A stretch of DNA of 51,164 bases from Modicisalibacter coralii (GTDB lineage: Bacteria; Pseudomonadota; Gammaproteobacteria; Pseudomonadales; Halomonadaceae), in assembly GCF_004117855.1 (NCBI RefSeq), contig NZ_QWBW01000009.1:1-51164 (forward strand), read 5' to 3'. How positions within the stretch are numbered: position 1 is the first letter of the stretch; the number at the start of each line of letters is the position of its first letter. Shown piece by piece: positions 22,956-26,966 of the stretch. The position numbers were made by a program, and so were the translations under genes. The notes under the pieces were generated by a model. That model worked only from the letters and a program-made list of their open reading frames with translations, made no database searches and was not told where the DNA came from.

Positions 22956-22984
22956 CGGCGCCCCAGCGCGAACCGTCGTGTCAG

Positions 22985-23076
22985 AGAGTGTTTACAAAAT
23001 GCCTGCGCTCGACAATACGGCGTTAAAATCGGCCTCGTGCGCGAGCCCGGTCAAAATGCTCATTTAACCCGCGTAA
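22985..23076 (+). repeat. Left half of a MITE-like inverted-repeat element
   Basis: It starts GAGAGTGTTTACAAA. TGTTTACAAA, 26 bases, then AAAATCGGCC occurs here and again, inverted and with exactly the same 26-base spacing, at the right end (26891-26966). The half ends in CGCGTAA (23070-23076), which is repeated directly at 26891-26897. See the right-half entry. Confidence 0.7.
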
Positions 23077-23107
23077 TCTTGAGTTTACTGGGCTCTGTGG
23101 GACTGAG

Positions 23108-23164
23108 ACCGTAAATCTCTCCCCGGTACCGCAAATCCCTCCCTCTCAAACCGCAAAAACCTCC
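23108..23164 (+). repeat. Three iteron-like direct repeats beside an AT-rich stretch
   Basis: Three 15-bp copies of ACCGYAAATCYCTCC lie at 23108-23122, 23128-23142 and 23150-23164, a spacing of 20-22 bp or about two helical turns. They are followed at once by an AT-rich run (23165-23215). This is the layout of an iteron plasmid origin with its unwinding region. No rep gene is present. Confidence 0.6.
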
Positions 23165-23275
23165 TTTTTTCTCTACAAACACCTTATAATCAATGAGTTA
23201 TTAAAGATAAAAGGGGCAGAAAAGGAAAAAGAGACGGCTGAACAACTCGCTGGTGATTGCGGCGCGGGCGTCCTT

Positions 23276-23297
23276 GAGTTATATTTTTGTATAACTC
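23276..23297. promoter_or_regulatory. Palindromic operator of the toxin-antitoxin operon
   Basis: A perfect dyad GAGTTATA-TTTTTG-TATAACTC ends 34 bp before the antitoxin start. AbrB-fold antitoxins of the MazE/PemI type repress their own operon at such palindromes, so this is the probable autoregulatory site. A further GAGTTAT occurs upstream near 23195-23201. Confidence 0.65.
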
Positions 23298-23331
23298 ATG
23301 CTCTAGTGCGCTGCTGGTTAAGGAGGCCAAT

Positions 23332-23586
23332 ATGAGTACCACCAATCTCCGCCGCGTCGGCGGCTCTGTCATGATGGCGGTGCCGCGGGCACTGCTCGAT
23401 CAGTTGCACCTGCACGCCGGCTCTCAGGTTGATATCGAGGTCGATCACGGGCGTCTGATCGTGGAGCCGGCTAAGCCGCGGTATTCCCTTGAGGAGCTGC
23501 TGGCTCAGTGCGACACCACGGCAGATATGTCCGCTGGCGAGCGCGAGTGGCTGGATGCCGAGCCCGTCGGCCGTGAGCTGCTGTAA
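23332..23586 (+). CDS. PemI/ChpS-type antitoxin (AbrB fold)
   Basis: The 84-residue protein starts at 23332 with a near-perfect ribosome site (AAGGAGG). LRRVGGSVMMAVPRALLDQL and AGSQVDIEVDHGRLIVEP form the swapped-hairpin AbrB DNA-binding domain. The acidic C-terminus (SLEELLAQCDTTADMSAGER) is the segment that wraps and blocks the toxin in MazE-like antitoxins. It overlaps the toxin gene by one base (TAATG). It should neutralise the PemK-like toxin and repress the operon at the 23276 palindrome. Confidence 0.9.
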   Translation: MSTTNLRRVGGSVMMAVPRALLDQLHLHAGSQVDIEVDHGRLIVEPAKPRYSLEELLAQCDTTADMSAGEREWLDAEPVGRELL

Positions 23587-23918
23587 TGCAGCGCGGTGAC
23601 ATCTATTTCGTTTCGCACAACCCCACGCGGGGCCATGAACAGCAGGGCATGCGTCCGGTGCTAATCGTGTCACCGGACGCGTTCAATCTCGCCATGGGCA
23701 CACCCCTGGTTGCGCCGATCACCAACGGTGGCGACTTCGCGCGTTCCCGAGGCTTCACGGTATCGCTGGCCGAAGCGGGCACGACCACTACCGGCGTCGT
23801 GCTGTGCAGTCAGATCCGCACCCTGGACATCGAGGCCCGTCAGGGACGATGGGTGGAGAACGTGCCGCCAGAGATCATGGATGATGTGCTTGCCAAGCTG
23901 GCGACCTTGGTGAGCTGA
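23586..23918 (+). CDS. PemK/MazF/ChpB-type endoribonuclease toxin
   Basis: The 110-residue protein reads QRGDIYFVSHNPTRGHEQQG, RPVLIVSPDAFN, GVVLCSQIRTLD and a helical C-terminus, all in the order of the CcdB/PemK fold. Family toxins cleave mRNA at short sequences and stop growth when the antitoxin is lost. The length is normal and the conserved Arg and strand motifs are present, so it is likely active. The start overlaps the antitoxin stop, giving coupled translation. It lies on the plasmid-like island, where it would act as an addiction module. Confidence 0.92.
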   Translation: MQRGDIYFVSHNPTRGHEQQGMRPVLIVSPDAFNLAMGTPLVAPITNGGDFARSRGFTVSLAEAGTTTTGVVLCSQIRTLDIEARQGRWVENVPPEIMDDVLAKLATLVS

Positions 23919-23955
23919 GCCATACTGTCTTGCTTCCGTTAGGAGGCTATTAAGC

Positions 23956-23997
23956 ATGGAAACTCTAGGAACTGCGCTGGTGAAAAGTTATGGATGA
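23956..23997 (+). CDS. Possible 13-codon leader peptide
   Basis: The peptide METLGTALVKSYG has a strong ribosome site (TAGGAGGC) seven bases before its ATG and overlaps the start of the next gene by eight bases. The next gene's own ATG (23990) has no comparable site. It may be a coupling leader, or the true N-terminus of the next protein separated by a frameshift. Confidence 0.35.
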   Translation: METLGTALVKSYG

Positions 23998-24601
23998 CTT
24001 CAATTACCGAGGCAAGCGGGTACAGTTTTGGAAGCTTCAAGGGGAAGTTCTAGATTCAGATCGCTACAGCGAAACCCGCGTCACAGCCCGTAGTGGCGTG
24101 GGGAATGCCCGCGTACGGATGAGACAAAAAACATACCATGACTTCTGGATTCGCGGGGGTGATGGGCGTGAACAATCCATCCAGCTCGAGGATGTCAAAG
24201 TGCCACTGCGTGCTGGTCAGCAAGTCACCGTGGTTTGTGCTGGCCTCCCTCGCAGTGAGCGTGGCTGGTTATGCTCACTCGTGAATCACTCGACCGGTCG
24301 GTCGCACGACATTATCCCTGCGAAAACGTTGCAGAGGCGGCTTCGTCTAGAACGCATCACCGGTGTTTCACTCATTTTTGCGCTGGCTGTAGCTGCCTTG
24401 GTGGTGTATCTCACACTGCCGCCGAGTGGCTATTTCGCTCATCCTTGGAGAATGGCCAGGTGGGACTATGCGGCAATCGCTGGCGTTGTGGTGCTGGTCT
24501 TGGGAGCCTGGCGAAAATCACGCCGTGGAGGTCGTGCTGCCCGCGCCCTCAAAGCACACATCGGAGAGGCTGTCTCGCAAGCCCAGCAAGGCCATGCTTA
24601 G
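23990..24601 (+). CDS. Hypothetical protein with two C-terminal membrane helices
   Basis: I do not recognise this 203-residue protein. Residues 1-115 are hydrophilic and beta-rich (KRVQFWKLQGEVLDSDRY, then a run ending in QVTVVCAGLP), suggesting a small cytoplasmic domain. Two transmembrane helices follow (about 123-142 and 157-173), and the tail is basic. It sits between the toxin gene and an antitoxin on the opposite strand, within the plasmid-like island. The ATG at 23990 lacks a good ribosome site of its own; see the possible leader at 23956. Confidence 0.6.
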   Translation: MDDFNYRGKRVQFWKLQGEVLDSDRYSETRVTARSGVGNARVRMRQKTYHDFWIRGGDGREQSIQLEDVKVPLRAGQQVTVVCAGLPRSERGWLCSLVNHSTGRSHDIIPAKTLQRRLRLERITGVSLIFALAVAALVVYLTLPPSGYFAHPWRMARWDYAAIAGVVVLVLGAWRKSRRGGRAARALKAHIGEAVSQAQQGHA

Positions 24602-24660
24602 CCGCACTGGCATCCGTGAAGGATTATCTTCTTCTGCTCAGGAGTGTCGATGGGTATCTC

Positions 24661-24855
24661 CTAACCAGCGGTATGTTGGCGCTTCTTGGACTCCAAGAGG
24701 AGAGAGCGCAGTTTGGCCATTGCCTCATCATGGGGAATGTTGGGCCGCGGGCCGTTCAAGCTGCGCTGGACGCGCTCGCGAAACCAACGATCGTAGCTGT
24801 CGACCTGTTCCTGCGTCTCGAACTCGCTGATGCGTGGATTCAGTGGGGTGCTCAT
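24661..24855 (-). CDS. RelB/DinJ-like stability-determinant antitoxin, no toxin partner
   Basis: The 64-residue protein starts at 24855 (MSTPLNPRISEFETQEQ; ribosome site AGAGGAAG). EFETQEQVDSYDRWFRERVQ followed by RPNIPHDEAMAKLRSLL is the pattern of the plasmid 'stability determinant' family of RelB-like antitoxins, normally followed by a ParE-type toxin. Downstream (24600-24660) there is no toxin start or frame, so it is an orphan: the toxin may have been lost on integration. It lies 56 bp upstream of the end of the coupling-protein gene, on the same strand but downstream of it. Confidence 0.72.
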   Translation of the reverse strand: MSTPLNPRISEFETQEQVDSYDRWFRERVQRSLNGPRPNIPHDEAMAKLRSLLLESKKRQHTAG

Positions 24856-24911
24856 GCGATGGCTTCCTCTCGATGGCAATCCGCCAATATCGGGACTTTA
24901 TCCCCTTAAAG

Positions 24912-26795
24912 TCATCGCCGCTCAAACTCTGGCCAGCGGCGGTAATACGGTGTCGCGGTGCCACGCCACGCGAGCCCTTGATACGTGCAAACCGCCTCGC
25001 CCTGGGCGAGCTGCTGGAGTTGGTGGGGCCAGATGATCGGCTCACGCTCCAGGGACTGACTGTGCGTGTACGTGTACTCGGAGCTGAGGAAACCGGGGTC
25101 TTCACTGGCACTGACCGCTTCGATCAAGCGGTCCACGCTGCCGATCTTGTCGCTCACCCACTGGGCCGTGCCATTGTCATTGAGGCGGAACACCAGGTGG
25201 AGGTCGCAGGCCCCCATGATGATATTCGGCCCCTCGTCGTTTTTCGTCCCATACGGCTGCATCTGCTCCCGGCTCTGCCAATACAACCATGTCGGCAGCT
25301 CGCGGGACCGGATGGTGTTCAGCTTCTGCACGAGTCCCGCCACCTGGGGCACGTTGCCGATCTCATCGAGCAACAACAGCACCGGCGCCCGGTTGGTGTG
25401 CTCGATCAGATAGCGCAGGACGTGGCCCATCATCACCGAGAACAGTCGGGCCGTGGTCTGCTGCTGGGACTCCTCGAATTGCAGGAACAGCCCCACGCGG
25501 CCCCGGCAGAGGTCGGCCAGTGTGAAATCCGACGCCGCCAGGGCCTCGCGGATCGCCGGGAAGCGCAGGAAACGGAGATTCGACTGGAAGGTCGCAAAGA
25601 TCGAGCCCATCAGGCGCTCATTGTTGGCCATGATGCGCAGTCCGTTGGCCAGGTCGCGGGCGTCCGGCGACGGACTAGCGGCCAGCTCGCGCAGCAGCTC
25701 CCGGTGATCGCTGAATTGCGCAACATAGTCCCGCAGACTCGGCAGCGAAGCCCCGCCCGCAGCGTCGCGCAGGTGGCAGATGAGCGCGTCCAGGAGGTCG
25801 CGAGCCGACTCGATGAACACCGACTGTTCAGCATCATCTGTCGGCGGCACCAGGGCCGACGCCAGCTCGCCCACGGCTTCGGGGCTCTCCAGGTCATCGA
25901 GGGGGTTGTAACCCTCTCCACTCTGAGCCGTAGGGTTGAACGCCAGCAGGCGATAGCCCTTGGCCTCCAGGCGCTCGCGGACGATCTCGAGGATTTCGGG
26001 CTTGATGTCGTTGACGACGAACGAGCGGCCCGACTCGGCCCAGTCCAGCAGCTGAGCGACCAGGAAGGCCGTTTTGCCGGTGCCAGGCGGACCGATGACG
26101 CAGGCGCGGTCCTGGGTGCCGATATGCAGCGGCTGTCCTCCCACTTCGCCGGCGAGCACACCACCCGGCTGTGAGCGCCCCTGCACTGTTCGATGGATGG
26201 CGGGGTCAGCCAGCAGGTCCGGGCGATGCTTCTCCACCGAAGGTGTCGTGTCCCGAAGCCGCAGGAAAGCAGCGATCCCAGCCCCTACCAGGCCCACGAC
26301 GATCACCAGCTGCACCAGCACGATGATGCCCCCACCAACACTGCGCACCAGGTCATACCAGGGCACGACAATAGCCGCCCACCACATGGCGACGATGGCG
26401 ACGGGAGCCAAGAGCACCCAGCGCCGCGGGTCCGAGTCCGAATGGCGACGCTGCCACCAGGTCTGAGCACCCAGCAGCACCGCCACGGGCAGCAATACCG
26501 ACCACAGCACTTGACCCGGATCGGCCGCCAGCGTTGTCATCGCATCGCCCCCGGTCAACAGGATCACCCCCAGCACCAAGGCGAACGCCTGAGCTGAGTA
26601 AATCAGCCCCCGCACCCCCTGGCTCCGAGGCGAAGGCAGCCAGCCTGGCGCCGGCACGTACCGTCCCCCTCCGACCAAGGTGCGGCCGAGCGTCCTCAGC
26701 GGGGCCAATAGCGACGCCACGATTTTGCGGGCGCGGCGCCAGTGCTCGCCGGCCTTTTGGCCTTCTTGGTGCCAAGAGTTCTCGCGCTCATCCAT
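24912..26795 (-). CDS. Type IV coupling protein (TraG/TraD/VirD4-like ATPase)
   Basis: The 627-residue protein has about four transmembrane helices (62-82, 95-112, 125-147, 153-178) and a cytoplasmic ATPase domain. Walker A is GPPGTGKT (235-242) and Walker B is LLLLDEIGN (473-481). A motif near the C-terminus (FRLNDNGTAQWVSDKIG) matches the TraD/TraG DNA-transfer family. In conjugative plasmids this ATPase hands the relaxase-DNA complex to the type IV secretion channel. Here no relaxase or secretion genes accompany it, so it is an orphan, possibly able to serve a helper plasmid. The start at 26795 follows GGGAGA. Confidence 0.85.
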   Translation of the reverse strand: MDERENSWHQEGQKAGEHWRRARKIVASLLAPLRTLGRTLVGGGRYVPAPGWLPSPRSQGVRGLIYSAQAFALVLGVILLTGGDAMTTLAADPGQVLWSVLLPVAVLLGAQTWWQRRHSDSDPRRWVLLAPVAIVAMWWAAIVVPWYDLVRSVGGGIIVLVQLVIVVGLVGAGIAAFLRLRDTTPSVEKHRPDLLADPAIHRTVQGRSQPGGVLAGEVGGQPLHIGTQDRACVIGPPGTGKTAFLVAQLLDWAESGRSFVVNDIKPEILEIVRERLEAKGYRLLAFNPTAQSGEGYNPLDDLESPEAVGELASALVPPTDDAEQSVFIESARDLLDALICHLRDAAGGASLPSLRDYVAQFSDHRELLRELAASPSPDARDLANGLRIMANNERLMGSIFATFQSNLRFLRFPAIREALAASDFTLADLCRGRVGLFLQFEESQQQTTARLFSVMMGHVLRYLIEHTNRAPVLLLLDEIGNVPQVAGLVQKLNTIRSRELPTWLYWQSREQMQPYGTKNDEGPNIIMGACDLHLVFRLNDNGTAQWVSDKIGSVDRLIEAVSASEDPGFLSSEYTYTHSQSLEREPIIWPHQLQQLAQGEAVCTYQGLAWRGTATPYYRRWPEFERR

Positions 26796-26890
26796 GCGGC
26801 AGTTCTCCCTGTCGTCATCCTCCCCCGAACAGGGCAGACACGCCCCGCTGAGGGTTCAGCAATGTGCCGATTATTCAGTCAAGATAAAGG

Positions 26891-26961
26891 CGCGTAAACT
26901 CCGCTTTTTCGGCCGATTTTGCCTTGTCTTGCCTTCGCTCGCCTAATTTGTAAACACCCTC

Positions 26962-26966
<5 letters not shown>
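26891..26966 (-). repeat. Right half of the MITE-like element, abutting valS
   Basis: Read on the minus strand it begins GAGGGTGTTTACAAA and has AAAATCGGCC after the same 26-base spacing as the left half. It reaches into the valS stop codon (26962-26964). Joining left and right halves at the shared CGCGTAA would rebuild one element of about 160 bp with inverted ends. Confidence 0.7.

Follow-up and report, generated by a model that had tools for sequence, protein, structure and literature searches.

A 51,164-nt stretch of the Modicisalibacter coralii genome (contig NZ_QWBW01000009.1 of assembly GCF_004117855.1, positions 1 to 51,164; hereafter the window) carries, behind valS, a short mobile repeat with foreign genes in its centre. 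The repeat is a hairpin-shaped miniature inverted-repeat transposable element (MITE) of 157 bp, of which intact copies are plentiful in the same genome. Its two halves enclose a 3.8-kb cargo whose genes have plasmid relatives. The whole composite is flanked by a TCA duplication and the cargo by a second duplication, CGCGTAA, that falls on the apical loop of the hairpin. The insertion mechanism is uncertain; our preferred explanation, which we consider evenly balanced, is that a MITE settled at valS and that a plasmid fragment was later captured in its loop.

The MITE and its copies

The element proper, GAG(A/G)GTGTTTACAAA ... TTTGTAAACACCCTC, spans 22984-26961. Near its left end the motifs TGTTTACAAA and AAAATCGGCC start at 22989 and 23025, and at the right end GGCCGATTTT and TTTGTAAACA start at 26911 and 26947, with 26 bases between the motifs on either side. 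A first-pass annotation of the window had reported this motif pair and its inverted counterpart with equal spacing, which is correct, but had set the left start at 22990, one base off. It had also proposed that CGCGTAA stands at both inner edges and that joining the halves there rebuilds one pre-existing repeat of about 160 bp. Both proposals are borne out: the heptamer occurs in the window at 23070 and 26891 only (random 7-mer pairs from the window agree with a frequency of 0.00016), and the element minus its cargo measures 157 bp. The joined halves (22984-23076 fused to 26891-26961 at CGCGTAA) align without gaps over 162 bp, with 93.8% identity, to their best match, an intact copy on the same contig (L017, C29:207,688-207,849).

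The annotation had named the lack of any intact ~160-bp copy as evidence against itself; such copies are in fact abundant. The own genome holds at least 63 matching pieces by the left-half query and at least 52 by the right-half query, both lower bounds, since scoring covered 40 of 56 candidates for the first query and 40 of 46 for the second. Among 40 fetched loci, 36 were alignable, near-full-length and cargo-free, and these were aligned together with the joined window sequence; the other four (L038, L042, L052, L055) were scrambled or truncated and were excluded. Four more copies (L102-L105) bring the cargo-free, near-full-length total to at least 40. Because the repeat is a family, chance is no issue for the motif layout. 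The aligned copies share a core of ~115 bp and are 142-175 bp long, one flank base per side included, a length that leaves no room for a transposase gene. The family has terminal inverted repeats of 15-16 bp, and the composite keeps 15-bp ones. Its end type, GAGGGTGTTTACAAA, is present in 19 of the 36 other aligned copies. Identical 3-bp flanks were seen in 15/37 copies, namely the composite and 14 of those 19, and in 0/17 copies that end differently, for which the aligned boundaries may be one base out. The repeat was detected in 90 of 121 sampled genomes of the family, across 18 of 24 genera. Short, dispersed in many copies and free of a transposase gene, the element has terminal inverted repeats as well as a target-site duplication and is a MITE. 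TNA duplications may link it to the IS5 family (IS1031/ISL2).

Eight genomes were searched for terminal repeats, and the 177 ends found comprise 67 compact pairs, the composite, one pair 24.8 kb apart and 39 unpaired ends, most of which were not looked at individually. No autonomous insertion sequence (IS) with the same ends emerged, there being no end pair at IS spacing in these eight genomes at up to one mismatch, with no wider search; nor did terminal-repeat pairs reveal another cargo-bearing unit in the own genome and the seven others. The 24.8-kb pair (in G490) was considered as such a unit and was not counted, because it starts in L127, itself a complete copy. An isolated end in the own genome (C17:47025, behind a metF-like gene) was considered as an IS end; by eye it looks like a truncated right half.

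In the own genome, one conserved core is combined with at least three end types (GAGGGTGTTTACAAA, GGCTCTGTACGAAAA and CGCTTTGTCTGAAAA), as if it had been handed between transposase specificities. Four loci with copies, compared with Rfam, matched none of its families up to E 1. We found no paper on this repeat, most subscription papers being outside our reach, so that its novelty is unproven; the word MITE is absent from the Halomonas mobile-DNA paper PMC3606827 by term search.

CGCGTAA is not the consensus centre of the family. It is present in none of the 19 other copies with the same terminal repeat and in 1/36 overall (L030). The rarity of the heptamer in other copies, set against its presence on both sides of the cargo, favours a genuine duplication of the centre of this copy over coincidence. 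Entry of the cargo into a pre-existing repeat with duplication of 7 bp, as first suggested, is the most economical reading.

Two other readings of the same junctions seem very improbable. The composite might be the parent element and the MITEs its derivatives, formed by deletion between the CGCGTAA copies; the accessible part of PMC5444012 presents both MITEs and mobile insertion cassettes as products of internal deletion in IS. Yet the repeat is as widespread as stated above while the cargo, a PaaA2-like stretch in five genomes aside, was detected in 0/13 relatives in the genus (21 candidates scored in each), the composite's copy is closest to one copy, L017, and its heptamer departs from the family centre. 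Equally remote is an assembly artefact in which repeat copies falsely join plasmid and chromosome. The genome is a draft of 74 contigs with this repeat in at least 40 copies, but a repeat-mediated misjoin would preserve whole copies instead of two halves abutting unique cargo at a single duplicated 7-mer, and the flanking genes dgc and valS are neighbours in several relatives.

Hairpin, loop and insertion site

RNAalifold was applied to 29 of the 36 copies (alignment A1, with seven copies that have extra modules or long indels left out). It returned a single hairpin across the whole element with 40 pairs, 20 of them with double-sided changes; with the apical stem added there are 45 pairs, and 96.0% of cells are paired. 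The covariation score was 0.306 versus 0.118 in shuffles, of which 0/500 reached 0.306, and the sliding control stayed at or below 0.057. The apical stem is nearly invariant and hence has no covariation support. Covariation between the terminal repeats is expected because one transposase reads both ends, but this does not account for that of the inner stem (columns 47-51 with 95-99). Folded as single-strand DNA, three copies gave z = -7.4, -5.8 and -3.8, each with the loop TTTAC-5 nt-GTAAA. The 7-bp repeat falls on the apical loop and on the 3' arm of the apical stem, and the cargo lies in that loop: the left half passes through it to GTAA, and the right half starts with CGCGTAA.

The family also carries small hairpin modules at fixed internal places (seen in L114-L121, L126, L127, L017 and at 23035-23050 of the window). 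Some are of ~16 bp, CTGG-NNCG-CCAG-CCCGG or CTCG-NNCG-CGAG-CCCGG, and occur in either arm. The left arm may hold runs of short-loop mini-hairpins (TGAACGAAGTTCA, CGTCCGAAGGACG, GCCCGAAGGGC), and the right arm a module resembling GCTACGCGCCCCG.

On the minus strand the right TCA is the stop codon of valS, and therefore the insertion left the stop intact. The valS region was found in all 14 genomes of the genus, the own included. An intact repeat behind valS, which the first-pass annotation had suggested looking for in strains without the cargo, did not appear: none of the 13 relatives, which are different species, had a match to the joined repeat within ~1.5 kb of its valS (valS-adjacent sequence was read in 12), and the empty site was not seen. 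In four of these loci (L084, L085, L086, L091) a distance of 114-122 bp separates the dgc match from that of valS.

The composite could instead have been made elsewhere and moved behind valS as a unit by a transposase acting in trans, as a true mobile insertion cassette. The close dgc/valS spacing in these four loci and the intact terminal repeats and 3-bp duplication would suit such a transfer. The same evidence fits a MITE that came first and received its cargo later, and the searches found neither a second copy of the cargo in the genome nor, by terminal-repeat pairs, another cargo-bearing unit in the eight genomes; we regard the transfer as rather improbable.

The cargo and its plasmid relatives

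Table 1. Features of the composite behind valS, in window coordinates.
Feature	Position	Strand	Remarks
Left 3-bp target duplication TCA of the MITE/composite	22981..22983	.	TCA/TCA flanks identical
Left terminal inverted repeat GAGAGTGTTTACAAA	22984..22998	+	
Left MITE half, CGCGTAA at its end	22984..23076	+	Family matches
Optional 16-bp module TCGTGCGCGAGCCCGG, small hairpin	23035..23050	+	Near-identical in L017; different modules occupy this place in other genomes
Left CGCGTAA 7-bp direct repeat, inner edge	23070..23076	+	
Inserted, probably plasmid-derived cargo, 3814 bp	23077..26890	.	
Degenerate Rep_3-type origin iterons, without rep	23108..23170	+	77-78% identity to L099 iterons beside rep
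MazE-like antitoxin gene	23332..23586	+	PF04014, E 3e-8
PemK/MazF-like toxin gene	23586..23918	+	PF02452, E 6e-29
203-aa protein of unknown family	23990..24601	+	No Pfam match; four weak plasmid matches, 26-33% identity
PaaA2-like stability determinant, 72 aa	24661..24879	-	PF21217, E 6e-16
VirD4/TraG-like type IV coupling protein, 627 aa, open reading frame (ORF) without internal stop	24912..26795	-	PF02534, E 1e-35
Right CGCGTAA 7-bp direct repeat	26891..26897	+	
Right MITE half	26891..26961	+	Family matches
Right terminal inverted repeat GAGGGTGTTTACAAA	26947..26961	-	Sequence given for minus strand
Right 3-bp target duplication TCA	26962..26964	.	valS TGA stop codon on minus strand

The nearest relative of the coupling protein, at 76-78% identity, is encoded on a 6.6-kb contig of Kushneria pakistanensis (NZ_BMZM01000007.1, L099), which also has a Rep_3 initiator gene and, next to it, four iterons. 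The ends of this contig do not overlap, so it is plasmid-like only and not a demonstrated circle. The cargo has a 63-bp stretch, starting 31 bp inside its left edge, that matches these iterons, and hence a plasmid origin of replication that lacks the initiator. The description of the cargo as plasmid-like is upheld by the iterons and coupling protein that it has in common with a Rep_3-bearing contig. More distant coupling proteins are those of Vibrio pSIO1 (L100, 48% identity) and a Pleionea plasmid (L101, 57%).

On the Kushneria contig and the Pleionea plasmid a recombinase-like gene precedes the coupling-protein gene, and so it does on pSIO1, where one small ORF lies between them. The Kushneria and pSIO1 recombinase-like proteins have an N-terminal Phage_int_SAM_2 and an Integrase_1 domain; the Pleionea gene was identified by its annotation name. 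A tyrosine-recombinase-like gene and a VirD4-like coupling protein thus recur together on plasmids or plasmid-like contigs that otherwise differ, and may be a relaxase-coupling module. Recombinase-like relaxases such as MobK, TcpM and MpsA exist and lack the usual DNA-binding domains, according to the available part of PMC8152469; the Kushneria and pSIO1 proteins differ from these in their N-terminal SAM-like domain. In the 25 kb of the Pleionea plasmid that were read, one gene block occurs twice with identical protein accessions, a large internal duplication.

The cargo has no such recombinase-like gene: upstream of the coupling protein there are 95 bp before the right half of the MITE is reached, and the 102 bp from the start of that gene to the end of the right CGCGTAA have stops in all three frames and no recognisable recombinase tail. 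Pfam named no recombinase, transposase, rep or relaxase in the five cargo proteins, the 203-aa one being without a match, in agreement with the annotation's statement that a recombinase is missing. No inverted repeat of 12 bp or more links the two cargo ends. Accordingly, neither what would mark an integrative plasmid or integrative mobilizable element (its own integrase with a replication or relaxase gene) nor the terminal inverted repeats and transposase of a DDE transposon were recognised in the cargo. No relative of the Kushneria recombinase was found in the own genome at E 1e-5, other recombinases of the genome not having been surveyed, and no second copy of the cargo was found there.

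Among 390 sampled genomes of the order the coupling protein was found in two at E 1e-80, the own and evidently the Kushneria contig, and among 369 of the class in the own genome only, at E 1e-60; genome_contigs had one locus and viral_contigs no match. In plasmid records it reached at most 57% identity among the matches listed (best 30 of 1886), and pemIK ~68% DNA identity among those listed (best 30 of 1016); the two cargo edges gave two chance-like matches or none. With 21 candidates scored in each genome, the 13 genus relatives yielded nothing of the cargo save a PaaA2-like stretch in five. This stretch (window 24713-24877) is the only part of the cargo proper seen in genus relatives by DNA, with 70-85% identity in its carriers (G001, G008, G009, G011, G013).

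Proposed capture in the loop and comparison with known systems

We propose that a 157-bp hairpin MITE first inserted at the valS stop codon, duplicating TCA. Its apical loop would then have received 3.8 kb from a small plasmid of Rep_3 type that was probably mobilizable, with duplication of CGCGTAA. The loop of an extruded cruciform or a single-strand hairpin would have been cut by a hairpin nuclease, and the staggered break repaired through capture of a linear plasmid fragment. A staggered cut at the hairpin tip is suggested by the exact central position together with the 7-bp duplication. Capture of a fragment, rather than orderly integration, is suggested because the cargo has no long terminal repeats, because neither rep nor the recombinase-like gene lies within its ends, and because no relative of the latter was found in the genome at E 1e-5. 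The ends do look arbitrary for a plasmid, with iterons that lack rep and a coupling protein that lacks its usual neighbour. SbcCD is a hairpin-cutting nuclease, and the host genome has an SbcD_C match. The product would be a passenger-loaded MITE of ~4 kb. With its two terminal repeats intact it should in principle be open to mobilisation by a transposase in trans, and the toxin-antitoxin pair may help to retain the unit.

Several points weigh against capture. The genome has no Ku match, and ordinary non-homologous end joining is thus probably unavailable. The insertion is single, and any preference for the loop would rest on this one event: it is the only credible pair 300 bp-30 kb apart among the 177 ends of eight genomes. 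Further pair types were no more numerous in the hairpin than in shuffles (319/500). It cannot be told whether the MITE came first or the whole unit was transposed later. Finally, there is mild evidence for a circular intermediate: the cargo ends, when joined, form the inverted repeat TCAAGAT-11-ATCTTGA with arms of 7 bp (P 0.0225).

This last point leads to the main rival, the site-specific integration of a plasmid circle by a tyrosine recombinase in trans, with a plasmid site recombining with the dyad at the MITE centre and CGCGTAA as the crossover overlap. Seven base pairs is a typical overlap length for site-specific recombination, and in the joined ends the inverted repeat flanks CGCGTAA, although it is offset from it. 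The coupling-protein relatives sit behind tyrosine-recombinase-like genes, and the N-terminal Phage_int_SAM_2 domain of the Kushneria and pSIO1 genes looks like that of a true recombinase. However, a whole plasmid should have brought rep and the recombinase, neither of which was recognised in the cargo, and the genome search for a Kushneria-type recombinase was negative within the limits given above. We consider the integration of a circle unlikely, if worth keeping in mind. A XerCD/dif-like site at the junction was also considered and rejected; judged by eye against the dif consensus, one half-site is partly similar and the other is not.

Capture in the loop, read as it is from a single case, would have wider implications. 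The composite offers a clean case of a gene-less repeat that gained passengers, with the empty form in dozens of copies and the filled form with both ends. If hairpin tips were preferred sites of breakage and capture, such bacterial repeats would be entry points for foreign genes. That the apical loop is a fragile spot capturing incoming plasmid DNA without a recombinase, and that hairpin MITEs act as acceptors making transposable cassettes, is a speculative generalisation that we think has a small chance of being right. With covariation over its full length and mini-hairpins that can be exchanged, the repeat family also suits the question of what selects the hairpin shape in MITEs.

ERIC, Correia and RUP elements are short and intergenic, with terminal inverted repeats, a whole-element hairpin and variants with internal insertions, and thus resemble the present repeat in shape. 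The latter differs in sequence, belongs to another bacterial family, and combines several terminal-repeat types on one core with hairpin modules at fixed internal places. MITEs of the ERIC, Correia and RUP type are reviewed in PMC10969869, as far as that text is accessible. IS1397, IS621 and ISKpn1 insert into palindromic REP units (PMC1525189, accessible part). Like these cases, the composite has foreign DNA within a dispersed palindromic repeat; unlike IS1397, IS621 and ISKpn1, which bring their own enzyme, its insert has none recognised, and one case is known. With the Kushneria contig the cargo shares a related coupling protein and iterons, and with pSIO1 and the Pleionea plasmid the coupling protein only; it differs from all three in having no recombinase-like gene, and from the first also in having no Rep_3 gene.

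A close structural parallel is with mobile insertion cassettes (MIC/MICE), such as the qnrS2 MICE of Aeromonas pAC3, in which IS-type inverted repeats surround passenger genes without a transposase gene (PMC5444012). The composite likewise has terminal repeats and a duplication around passengers, with no transposase recognised, and by this structure would class as a mobile insertion cassette known from a single copy. In contrast to MIC/MICE, it is bounded by the two parts of an otherwise complete MITE of 157 bp, divided at the hairpin loop by a 7-bp duplication, and its passengers are plasmid functions. The composite is, in short, a MITE that carries plasmid passengers, a toxin-antitoxin pair and a DNA-transfer gene, in its loop.

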